A stretch of 64,000 bases of DNA from Egicoccus sp. AB-alg6-2 (lineage in GTDB: Bacteria; Actinomycetota; Nitriliruptoria; Nitriliruptorales; Nitriliruptoraceae): the NCBI RefSeq assembly GCF_041821025.1, contig NZ_JBGUAY010000009.1, positions 62,001 through 126,000 on the forward strand, in the 5' to 3' direction. A program made the translations under genes and the position numbers. A model generated the notes under the pieces. It was not told the DNA's origin and did not search any database. It was given only the letters and a program-made list of their open reading frames with translations. Positions 5,767 through 9,115 of this stretch are shown here, one piece after another; position 1 is the first letter of the stretch, and every line of letters begins with the position of its first letter.

Positions 5767-6096
5767 ATGCTTCTTCCGTCACCTCGATCTCCATCCGAAG
5801 CCGATCTCCAGGCGCTCGGCCTGACCGGCTGTGTCGTGTGCGGTGACAAGGCAGCCGAGGGCACGGTTTGCTCCCGCGGCTGCGCCGTCGAGGCAGAACG
5901 CCAGGTCGCCCGCAACGTGGCCGAGCTGCGCCAGCTCGGCGCGGCCAAGGGACACCGGGCGAGACGGCAGTTCCTCAAGGCCCGCAACGGACGGCTGACG
6001 GACGCCATGCTGACGTGGCGGCCCGACGCCCACACCGGGTGCGGACCACCAGCGGGCGACGGCCCCGACGGGGCGGAGGGCGAGGCCGGCGCCTAG
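5767..6096 (+). CDS. Hypothetical protein with zinc-ribbon-like CxxC...C...C
   Basis: A 109-residue protein of no recognised family. Near residue 22 it has CVVCGDKAAEGTVCSRGC, a four-cysteine arrangement (CxxC, then CxxxC) that resembles a zinc-binding treble-clef or ribbon. A basic helix follows (RQLGAAKGHRARRQFLKARNG), which could bind nucleic acid. The tail is Gly/Asp-rich. The ATG at 5767 follows a G-rich stretch rather than a clear Shine-Dalgarno site. It stands alone, divergent from the crotonase. Confidence 0.6.
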   Translation: MLLPSPRSPSEADLQALGLTGCVVCGDKAAEGTVCSRGCAVEAERQVARNVAELRQLGAAKGHRARRQFLKARNGRLTDAMLTWRPDAHTGCGPPAGDGPDGAEGEAGA

Positions 6097-6162: not shown

Positions 6163-6178
6163 ACCGAGGGAGCGATCC

Positions 6179-6400
6179 ATGCGCGTGCAAGGACTGACGG
6201 AAGCCGACATCGAGACGGTCGGCACCACCACCGACGTCGCCACCACTGCCACCACCCGGGACGGCGATGCCACCGATGTCAGCGACGGGGACGCCGGCGA
6301 CGCGGACGGCACCGACGCCGACGACGCGGACGGCAACGACGCCGACGGCAACGACGGCGATGCGACCGACGGCGCCGACGCCGACGGCACCGACGCCTGA
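6179..6400 (+). CDS. Asp-rich low-complexity peptide, candidate substrate of the JmjC enzyme
   Basis: A 73-residue peptide. The first ~27 residues (MRVQGLTEADIETVG, then Thr-rich, ending in Arg27) are of mixed composition. Residues 28-73 contain only Asp, Gly, Ala, Thr, Asn, Val and Ser, with 19 Asp spaced every one to three residues (DADGNDADGNDGDATDG). It has a GGGAG ribosome site, and its TGA overlaps the ATG of the JmjC gene by one base (TGATG), which argues that it is translated. A leader/core layout like that of a modified-peptide precursor is possible; the DxDxDG-like spacing also resembles calcium-binding loops. No family is recognised. Confidence 0.6.
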   Translation: MRVQGLTEADIETVGTTTDVATTATTRDGDATDVSDGDAGDADGTDADDADGNDADGNDGDATDGADADGTDA

Positions 6401-7563
6401 TGACCGGCTCGTCCCTGACCCGGTTGGTCGGGGACGTGCGGCACTTCCTGGACCGGGTGTTCGGCGAGGTGCCGCTGCACGTCCCGGCGGCCGCACCCGA
6501 CGCCTTCGACGACGTCCTGTCCCTGGTCCACGTCGACGAGATCGTGGCCGCCTCCGGCTTGCGCGCCCCCGGCTTCCGGGTCGTGAAGCAGGGCGCGACG
6601 CTGCCCGCCAGCCGCGTGACGCGCAAGGCGCGGATCGGCTCGCGGCCGGTGGACGATCTCGCCGACGTCGCGGCGGTCCACGCCGCGTTCGCCGACGGAG
6701 CGACCGTGGTGCTGCAGGGACTGCATCGCTCGTGGCGTCCGGTCGCACAGCTCTGTCGTGAACTGGAGGTCGAGCTGACCCATCCCGTGCAGGCCAACGC
6801 CTACCTGACGCCGCCGGTCGCGCAGGGCCTGCACCTGCACGAGGATCCCCACGACGTGTTCGCCGTCCAGACCCACGGGGTCAAGCGGTGGGTCGTGCAT
6901 CCGCCAGACGGCACGGCGGCGTGGGACCTCGAACTCAAGCCCGGGGACGTGCTCTACCTGCCGGCAGGCACGCGGCATGCCGCGCAGACCGTCGAGTCCG
7001 CCTCGCTGCACCTCACCATCGGGGTCCGGACGATGCGTTGGTCGCAGCTCGTCCGGCGCGCCTTCGACGCGGCCCTGTCCTCAGCCGAGCTCGACCGGAC
7101 GGTGCCGGCGGGCTGGGCGGACACCCCAGGCGACCACCGTGACCTGCTCGCACGACAGCTCGAGACCGTGGCCGACGCGCTGCGCAATGGGGACCCGGAC
7201 ACCGCGCTTCGGGATGCGGCGGCGGCCTTCTGGTCCAACCGCGTCCCCGACCGCAGTGGTGGACTGCAGGACCTCCTCGCGGTCGACCAACTCGACGACG
7301 CCACCGCGCTCCGGGTTCGACCGCACCTCAGCGTCAACCTCGAGTTGGACCGGGACGTGGCCGTGCTCGTGCTGGCCGACCGGCGCGTGCGCATGCCCGC
7401 AGCCGTCGAACCGGCGCTGCGCTGGATGCTCGGGGTCGGCCGGTTCCGTCCGGCCGATCTCGACGATCATCTCGACGAGGCCAGCCGACTGGTGCTGTGC
7501 CGCCGACTGGTCCGGGAGGGGCTGTTGACCCTGCACGGTGCCGGGGACGGCGACCCGGCGTGA
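6400..7563 (+). CDS. JmjC/cupin-fold 2-oxoglutarate Fe(II) oxygenase
   Basis: A 387-residue protein of the ROXA/YcfD-like JmjC group, whose known members hydroxylate ribosomal proteins, while the related FIH hydroxylates Asn and Asp in peptides. The iron triad is visible: H147-x-D149 in LHLHEDPHD and distal H193 in GTRHAAQT, within a jelly-roll that includes LKPGDVLYLPAG. The C-terminal ~190 residues are helical and end in a winged-helix-like part as in ROXA enzymes. The start overlaps the Asp-rich peptide stop, and the stop overlaps the next gene (GTGA), so all three are probably made together. The peptide is the obvious candidate substrate by position. Confidence 0.82.
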   Translation: MTGSSLTRLVGDVRHFLDRVFGEVPLHVPAAAPDAFDDVLSLVHVDEIVAASGLRAPGFRVVKQGATLPASRVTRKARIGSRPVDDLADVAAVHAAFADGATVVLQGLHRSWRPVAQLCRELEVELTHPVQANAYLTPPVAQGLHLHEDPHDVFAVQTHGVKRWVVHPPDGTAAWDLELKPGDVLYLPAGTRHAAQTVESASLHLTIGVRTMRWSQLVRRAFDAALSSAELDRTVPAGWADTPGDHRDLLARQLETVADALRNGDPDTALRDAAAAFWSNRVPDRSGGLQDLLAVDQLDDATALRVRPHLSVNLELDRDVAVLVLADRRVRMPAAVEPALRWMLGVGRFRPADLDDHLDEASRLVLCRRLVREGLLTLHGAGDGDPA

Positions 7564-8453
7564 CCGACTGGTGCGCGCAGGAATCGCGCACCCGGGGCGA
7601 AGGGCCGCTCGGCACCGCCTCGCGGGCCCGGCGCTGGCTGCTGCTCGAGCAACCCGGTTCCTGGGGACGCGACGCGCTGCGTGCGTCCGACCTGCCTGCA
7701 GCGGTCGCCGAGCAACTCGAGGCCTGGTCCCGCGAGGTGCCCGTCCGCGTGCTGCTGCTGCGTCGGCCCGGCGGCGACCGGCCGCTCGGGGCCGAGCGTC
7801 TGCTGTACGCGGGCGTCAGCGCGCCGCAGGGCAGCTGGCTCGAGGCGATCGAACTGGGACACGTCCGCGAGGTGCTCGACCTCGACGTGTCGCCGTTGCG
7901 CGACGGCCGCAGCATCGGCGGAATCCGGGTCGTGGATCCGCTCTACCTCGTCTGCACCAACGGCAAGCACGACCCGTGTTGCGCAAAGTTCGGGCTGCCC
8001 GTGGCGCAGAGTCTGCTGGACGTCGTCGGCGACCGGGTGTGGGAGTGCTCCCACGTCGGCGGCGACCGCTTCGCCGGCAACCTGGTCTGCCTTCCCGACG
8101 GCCTCTTCTATGGCCACCTCGACGCCGACACGGCCCGCGTCGCCGTGGCGGCCAACGAGGGCGGCCGGATCGATCTCGACCACTTCCGCGGCCGCTCGTG
8201 CCACGCGTTCCCGGTGCAGGCGGCCGAGGCGCTCGCGCGTCAGCGGATGGGACTGCAGGGAACCGGGGCTTTGCGGGTGGTCGACGTGCAACGGGCCGGT
8301 GACCGCCACCGGGTGCGGTTCGCGCGACCCGGTGGCCGCCGTCTGGTCGTCGAGGTGGTGACGCGGCGCGACGCGCCCCCCGCACCGCTGACCTGTGGCG
8401 GCCTACCCGGGGCCGCACCGAGCTACGAGTTGGTCCACCTCGCCGAGGACTGA
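7560..8453 (+). CDS. Sucrase/ferredoxin-like (thioredoxin-fold) protein
   Basis: A 297-residue protein matching the Suc_Fer-like family. The central motif VCTNGKHDPCCAKFG (C132, C140, C141) and WECSHVGGDRFAGN (C163, H165) are the family hallmarks and are expected to bind an iron-sulfur cluster in a thioredoxin-like ferredoxin fold. A further cysteine lies at position 177. GTG at 7560 overlaps the JmjC stop by four bases. It probably supplies or handles electrons for the JmjC enzyme or keeps its iron reduced; that link rests on gene order only. Confidence 0.82.
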   Translation: MTDWCAQESRTRGEGPLGTASRARRWLLLEQPGSWGRDALRASDLPAAVAEQLEAWSREVPVRVLLLRRPGGDRPLGAERLLYAGVSAPQGSWLEAIELGHVREVLDLDVSPLRDGRSIGGIRVVDPLYLVCTNGKHDPCCAKFGLPVAQSLLDVVGDRVWECSHVGGDRFAGNLVCLPDGLFYGHLDADTARVAVAANEGGRIDLDHFRGRSCHAFPVQAAEALARQRMGLQGTGALRVVDVQRAGDRHRVRFARPGGRRLVVEVVTRRDAPPAPLTCGGLPGAAPSYELVHLAED

Positions 8454-8503: not shown

Positions 8504-9115
8504 ATGATCGAACTTGCATGGCAGGGCTCGCTGCTCGGGGCCGAGACGCCGACCGTGGATGCCGGGCTCCGCGGCCTGCAGCGGCACGAGCTCTCGAACG
8601 GCGCCTGGGTCGACCACCTGCCGGGTTGGCTGCATGGCGCCGACGCGGTCTTCGCCACCGCCCTCGAGCGCCTCCCCTGGGGGCAGCGGACCGAGCGGCT
8701 CCACGGGCAGGAACTCCTCCAGCCGCGGCTGACTGCCTCCATCCCGGTCGAAGCGCCGCCGGCCGGCCTCGAGGTCCTCGGCGAGATCGGGCGCATCCTC
8801 GACGACCGCTATGGGCGCCACTTCGAGCGGATCGGCGCGAACCTGTACCGCACGGGCCGCGACTCGGTGGCCTGGCACGGCGATCGGATCGCCCGCGACC
8901 TGCCGCAGGCCCTGATCGCGATCGTGTCGGTCGGCGCGCCCCGAACCTTCCGGCTGCGCCCGCGTGAGGGCGGCGCGAGCCTCGGTTTCTCGCTCGGCAA
9001 CGGCGATCTGCTGGTCATGGGAGGCAGCTGTCAGCGCACCTGGCAGCACACCGTTCCGAAGGTCGCCAGCGCCGGACCGCGGATCAGTCTCACCTACCGG
9101 CACGCCTACCCGTGA
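8504..9115 (+). CDS. AlkB-like 2-oxoglutarate Fe(II) dioxygenase
   Basis: A 203-residue protein of the AlkB family, which removes alkyl groups from nucleic acid bases by oxidation. The iron ligands are H125 and D127 (WHGD) and H182 (WQHTVPK); the 2-oxoglutarate-binding arginines are R193 and R199 in GPRISLTYR. The substrate lid contains NLYRTGRDSVAWH. The length is typical of bacterial AlkB homologues. An SOS box and a near-leaderless start precede it, fitting a DNA-damage-induced repair gene, and it is transcribed separately from the upstream JmjC set. Confidence 0.9.
   Translation: MIELAWQGSLLGAETPTVDAGLRGLQRHELSNGAWVDHLPGWLHGADAVFATALERLPWGQRTERLHGQELLQPRLTASIPVEAPPAGLEVLGEIGRILDDRYGRHFERIGANLYRTGRDSVAWHGDRIARDLPQALIAIVSVGAPRTFRLRPREGGASLGFSLGNGDLLVMGGSCQRTWQHTVPKVASAGPRISLTYRHAYP

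Follow-up and report, generated by a model that had tools for sequence, protein, structure and literature searches.

Three genes that overlap end to start, and form an operon, encode a 73-residue Asp-rich peptide, a JmjC oxygenase and an iron-sulfur protein of the Suc_Fer type in the 64-kb stretch of DNA analysed here (the window). Together these genes probably constitute, with a likelihood that we place at about 0.55, a RiPP-like cassette in which the JmjC protein recognizes the leader of the peptide and oxidizes its core, the Suc_Fer-like protein acts as an accessory carrier, and the product is a chelator or polyanion. The cassette looks like a so far undescribed route to an oxidized, probably metal-binding, peptide; no published description of it was found in the open-access literature.

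Organization of the cassette

The features of the cassette are as follows.

6166..6172, + strand: Shine-Dalgarno-like GAGGGAG, 6 bases 5' of the peptide start, read from the sequence
6179..6400, + strand: candidate precursor peptide, 73 aa
6179..6223, + strand: peptide leader MRVQGLTEADIETVG, carrying L-x-[DE]-x-[DE]-[IM]-x-T as its motif, from aligned leaders
6260..6397, + strand: Asp-repeat core, residues 28-73, 19 Asp, from sequence reading and family statistics
6400..7563, + strand: JmjC (ROX-type) Fe(II)/2OG oxygenase, 387 aa
6838-6840, 6844-6846 and 6976-6978, + strand: codons of the JmjC metal triad H147, D149 and H193
7309..7533, + strand: C-terminal RRE-like / winged-helix domain of the JmjC protein, from the secondary structure of an AlphaFold2 model
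7560..8453, + strand: Suc_Fer-like protein, 297 aa, GTG start overlapping the JmjC stop
7935..8195, + strand: thioredoxin-like [2Fe-2S] ferredoxin domain of the Suc_Fer-like protein
C131, C140, H164 and D168 of the Suc_Fer-like protein (numbered from the residue after the GTG start): candidate ligands, from motif comparison with PMC8482512

The layout described in an earlier note on this DNA was confirmed. Residues 28-73 of the peptide comprise D, G, A, T, V, S and N only; the peptide TGA (6398-6400) and the JmjC ATG (6400-6402) have one base in common, and the JmjC stop TGA (7561-7563) overlaps the GTG start (7560-7562) of the Suc_Fer-like gene. The assignment of the third protein as Suc_Fer-like was borne out by a Pfam match to PF06999 (E 3.4e-18), and the JmjC protein matches JmjC_2, PF08007 (E 2.6e-20). 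Pfam returned no match for the 73-residue peptide, and in NCBIfam none of the three products had a match above the cut-offs. An AlkB-like 2OG-Fe(II) oxygenase gene (8504-9115), 50 bases downstream of the Suc_Fer gene, was considered as a fourth member of the cassette and rejected, as it is kept at that place only within the genus. Upstream of the cassette a small open reading frame (5767-6096) with the Cys-rich motif CVVCGDKAAEGTVCSRGC is likewise kept only in members of the genus.

Distribution and gene order

When 61 related genomes were searched with the JmjC protein, 36 contained a match, and nearly every match was preceded by an Asp-rich frame that opens with a leader of the kind MRVEGLTDQDIETV. 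Genome contigs were scanned as well, which identified 80 loci, some of them in the genomes already searched; these loci lie mostly in Nitriliruptoria and Nocardioidaceae and also in Acidimicrobiia and 2 Myxococcota-type genomes, with the peptide in almost all. The same three-gene order recurs across Actinomycetota and the two Myxococcota-type genomes, and many of the bacteria with such a cassette come from soil and sediment. By automatic criteria a type I Asp-repeat peptide is encoded directly upstream of 96 of the 124 distinct JmjC homologues and a type II peptide upstream of 11 (107/124 for either type). Another acidic peptide, judged by eye, precedes 5 of the 124, no upstream peptide was found for 8, which are mostly distant and long-branch, and the tally includes 4 whose peptide could not be judged. 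A Suc_Fer gene lies directly downstream of JmjC in 75 of the 77 loci with enough sequence. When the search was reversed, with a peptide profile as query, the peptides recovered lay at the JmjC locus, the seeming exceptions being contig ends or weak matches. The Asp-rich frame is retained in nearly all homologous loci, contrary to the outcome that would have refuted the earlier note, and the peptide is a genuine companion, conserved alongside the JmjC and Suc_Fer genes.

The JmjC gene was present in 55 of 396 sampled Actinomycetota genomes (14%). The three genes travel as a unit, as the wider neighbourhood is not conserved. No conserved protease or exporter, components that are common in RiPP clusters but not essential to their definition, was found around the homologous cassettes. 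An optional MFS_3-type exporter gene lies downstream of Suc_Fer in 8 Nocardioides loci only (L084, L086, L088, L096, L100, L108, L112 and L113), and a P450-like gene occupies a downstream position in L074 and L113.

The peptide and its leader

A composition pattern of at least 10 Asp in 30 residues, almost all of them D/G/A/S/T/N and with no more than 1 Glu, occurs once in the six frames of the window, at the 73-residue peptide, and in 777 kb of related loci it never occurs outside the slot upstream of JmjC. A Shine-Dalgarno-like motif lies ahead of the peptide start in 85 of 87 homologues, whereas among ATGs of the window as a whole 21% have one. In pairwise comparison the leader had a pN/pS of 0.48 and the core one of 0.33, the latter in line with the purifying selection on which the earlier note had staked its reading, although both values are descriptive only because the pairs overlap phylogenetically and are not independent.

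The peptides share a short leader motif, L-x-D-[DE]-[DE]-[IM]-x-T, and across 89 distinct sequences a conserved leader is followed by a variable repeat core. This architecture, and the encoding of the peptide alongside the gene of a modifying enzyme, are what is expected of a RiPP precursor. A leader extending to Arg27 had been suggested earlier; the leader itself is conserved, but it ends near residue 15, and Arg27 does not mark its border with the core. Representative peptides matched no Pfam or NCBIfam model even at E 10, and an unannotated family of simple composition now has a defined enzyme partner.

Composition and spacing of the core

Core statistics refer to type I peptides, of which the C-terminal 55% was taken. 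These cores contain 1481 Asp vs 10 Glu, and 97% of their residues are D, G, A, T or S. Successive Asp are spaced by 2 or 3 in 96.4% of cases, as against 39% in shuffled sequences, while adjacent Asp account for 1% rather than the 37% found in shuffles; the steps usually run 2,3,2,3 (DADGTD, DGDSTD), with Thr often before the Asp and Gly or Ala often after it. The repeats expand and contract among homologous peptides. Aligned core Asp are unchanged in 96% and are replaced by Glu 6 times in about 13,000. Asp is the most tightly kept residue across the core types, including a divergent Streptomyces clavuligerus peptide that lacks core Gly.

Type II peptides contain repeats like EGPADGGSNPEGHDGGADGTA. 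A variant peptide with ADGTDQGVxGGTYGPRDA repeats occurs, without a Suc_Fer gene, at L063 and L022, and at L219 a third repeat type, PTEDDENLDAPGEHSQDTGDE in two copies, precedes the JmjC gene, with an Asp-type Suc_Fer gene about 22 kb away.

The JmjC enzyme

The HxD...H triad and the PF08007 profile match identify the second protein as a JmjC Fe(II)/2OG oxygenase, and the residues already proposed as its triad, H147, D149 and H193, do not vary among 20 homologues. An AlphaFold2 model (pLDDT 89) resembled, over nearly the whole chain, NO66 (Z 27.6), MINA53 (24.9) and YcfD (18.2), whereas FIH was matched through the JmjC core only (Z 13.9). As the nearest whole-chain folds are NO66 and MINA53 followed by YcfD, the enzyme is of the ribosomal-oxygenase (ROX) type by both sequence and fold, and the relationship to FIH that was originally suggested does not hold. 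The predicted structure has the overall ROX fold including its winged helix. At the C-terminus the model has strands and then three helices, an order that resembles an RRE (PqqD-like, three strands before three helices) or a winged helix. It should be emphasized, however, that this assignment comes from predicted topology, that there is no PqqD match in Pfam and that ROX enzymes have a similar winged helix anyway, all of which count against RRE-mediated leader binding.

NO66, MINA53 and YcfD/RoxA, which share with the JmjC protein the whole-chain fold, the metal triad and the winged-helix C-terminus, hydroxylate His or Arg of ribosomal proteins. These target residues, in contrast, are nearly absent from type I cores, and the gene neighbourhood points to the peptide, rather than to His or Arg of a ribosomal protein, as the target. 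In the JmjC tree, type II peptides are confined to one 12-row clade (SH-aLRT 99), in which row twelve, L222, carries instead an acidic peptide that is unrelated, and the enzymes of L022 and L027, both associated with GPRDA-repeat peptides, are sisters (support 95). Core type thus follows JmjC phylogeny, the pattern that joint evolution of core and enzyme would produce.

The iron-sulfur partner

A sequence search of solved structures revealed no relative of the Suc_Fer-like protein. Structural comparison shows that its residues 125-211 adopt, in prediction, the thioredoxin-like [2Fe-2S] ferredoxin fold (Z 12.4, rmsd 1.7 over 87 residues with 1m2a). Yeast relatives use the motif CX8CXnHX3H (PMC8482512). 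The cassette protein resembles these Apd1/Aim32-type [2Fe-2S] proteins in its fold and in its CX8C...HX3 motif, and C131, C140 and H164 are invariant in the linked family. The second His of the motif, however, is replaced in the JmjC-linked proteins, where the 106 readable motifs comprise 105 Asp, 1 Cys and 0 His. The canonical bis-His pattern of the Apd1 type is therefore absent, the fourth position being Asp, while the family profile still matches. Suc_Fer proteins elsewhere have His at this position in 22 of 25 readable cases, and the 3 Asp cases come from two genomes (G164 and G038) that also hold a JmjC gene. In 12 Nocardioides-type loci, including L086, a second Suc_Fer gene with a canonical GGH motif lies just upstream of the peptide; this His-type paralogue, about 0.35-1.5 kb upstream of JmjC, serves as a built-in control. 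The altered ligand position suggests from sequence that the subfamily may have a dedicated redox role, and the His-to-Asp swap poses a separate, directly testable bioinorganic question. The protein is probably accessory, because cassettes without a Suc_Fer gene exist (L063, L101, L214 and L217).

Proposed mechanism and alternatives

We infer that the peptide, once translated, would be recognized through its N-terminal leader by the JmjC protein, probably via the C-terminal RRE-like domain, and that the Fe(II)/2-oxoglutarate centre would then oxidize the repeated core many times, most likely by beta-hydroxylation of Asp, the favoured residue because it is kept in all core types. Hydroxylation is in keeping with the fold matches, as NO66, MINA53 and YcfD are all hydroxylases of peptide side chains. 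The [2Fe-2S] protein may serve the cassette as a dedicated electron carrier, in an accessory role that would either hold the iron of the oxygenase in the reduced state or assist a second step; against such a role, coupled turnover of 2OG hydroxylases needs no electron donor. The product would probably be a multidentate hydroxycarboxylate chelator or a structured polyanion. If many Asp are oxidized per peptide, the JmjC protein would be an iterative peptide hydroxylase.

It could be argued that the peptide is a RiPP-like precursor but that the JmjC enzyme performs a reaction other than Asp beta-hydroxylation, such as desaturation, oxidative decarboxylation, backbone cleavage, crosslinking or oxidation of Thr, Ser or Gly, with the Suc_Fer-like protein perhaps a true second catalyst or reductase. 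2OG enzymes catalyse varied reactions in RiPPs, and both the Thr and Gly/Ala that often flank core Asp and the altered Suc_Fer ligand position fit such chemistry. In some cores oxidation could fall on Thr, Ser, Gly or Ala, and it could end in desaturation or cleavage. This reading is rather unlikely, given that the nearest JmjC folds are hydroxylases and that Asp persists even in the Gly-less S. clavuligerus core.

It is more doubtful still that the peptide is not a substrate at all and serves instead as an acidic buffer for metals, as a chaperone supplying iron to the JmjC and iron-sulfur proteins, or as a tether between them. Poly-Asp binds metals, both partners are predicted to be iron proteins, and the lack of a conserved protease or exporter would be in keeping with such a role. 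A mere buffer, however, would tolerate Glu and adjacent Asp, both almost absent here, while a conserved short leader ahead of a variable core, and core types that track the enzyme tree, are precursor-like.

The earlier note had also offered a calcium-binding repeat with an affinity tuned by hydroxylation. The Asp/Gly/Asn content is high, and beta-hydroxy-Asp/Asn is found in calcium-binding EGF domains. The calcium-loop motifs, however, are depleted in the cores: DxDxDG loops (EF-hand/thrombospondin-like) were observed 7 times vs 35.2 +- 5.9 in shuffles, RTX-type GGxGxD 0 times vs 10.5, and no signal peptide was seen in the peptide sequences. This reading is thus highly improbable, and the depletion together with the Asp spacing rule indicates that acidity alone does not account for the core, and nor does a standard calcium motif. 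Finally, a low-complexity translation artefact without a product, to which a GC content of 70-76% and the changing repeat number might point, is ruled out, as far as sequence can do so, by the unique placement of the frame, its Shine-Dalgarno motifs, core pN/pS and conserved leader, and its spread over >100 distinct loci.

Relation to known systems

In biphenomycin RiPPs the JmjC enzymes BipG and PbsQ hydroxylate Orn (PMC12707348, PMC12257519). As predicted for the cassette, a JmjC-family Fe(II)/2OG enzyme encoded with the precursor acts there on its core; biphenomycin clusters, however, also contain an MNIO, a B12 radical SAM enzyme, an arginase and a protease, and have an FRF-type core with Orn as target, without Asp repeats or a Suc_Fer partner. 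Bregman et al. 2025 (PMC12710340) noted RRE-like folds in members of PF08007 that occur near RiPP-like contexts. The JmjC protein shares with these the family, a C-terminal fold predicted to be RRE-like and the bacterial RiPP-like context, whereas the passage of that paper on PF08007 features neither an Asp-repeat precursor nor a Suc_Fer partner.

Beta-hydroxyaspartate siderophores such as cupriachelin are nonribosomal peptides made with other Asp hydroxylase families (PMC12971057). The proposed cassette product would share their Fe(III)-binding beta-hydroxyaspartate, although the cassette peptide is ribosomal. As this residue is an established iron ligand in such siderophores, a metal-binding product is an attractive possibility, and if many Asp are oxidized the ribosome might supply a metal ligand that until now has been known from nonribosomal siderophores. 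We advance only tentatively the fuller proposal, that the cassette represents a new class of ribosomal peptides, widespread in Actinomycetota and present in Myxococcota too, in which a ROX-type JmjC enzyme makes many beta-hydroxyaspartates at regular spacing within a single peptide, yielding a gene-encoded polydentate ligand for iron or another metal, with an Asp-ligated [2Fe-2S] partner.

JmjC genes on plasmids

On an S. clavuligerus plasmid (L131, 5685-5831) a 48-residue peptide with a similar leader (LEPDEIEVI) and a different, Asp/Pro core precedes a JmjC gene; genes for an S9 peptidase and an ABC transporter lie nearby. Elsewhere, distant JmjC genes adjoin YcaO/TfuA genes on a Streptomyces plasmid (L133) or lie near a LanM gene on a Pseudanabaena plasmid (L136). 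On E. coli plasmids of about 7.9 kb, such as pHUSEC41-3, a distant JmjC gene (L134) follows an ABC transporter and a hypothetical gene, and these genes possibly form a peptide system.
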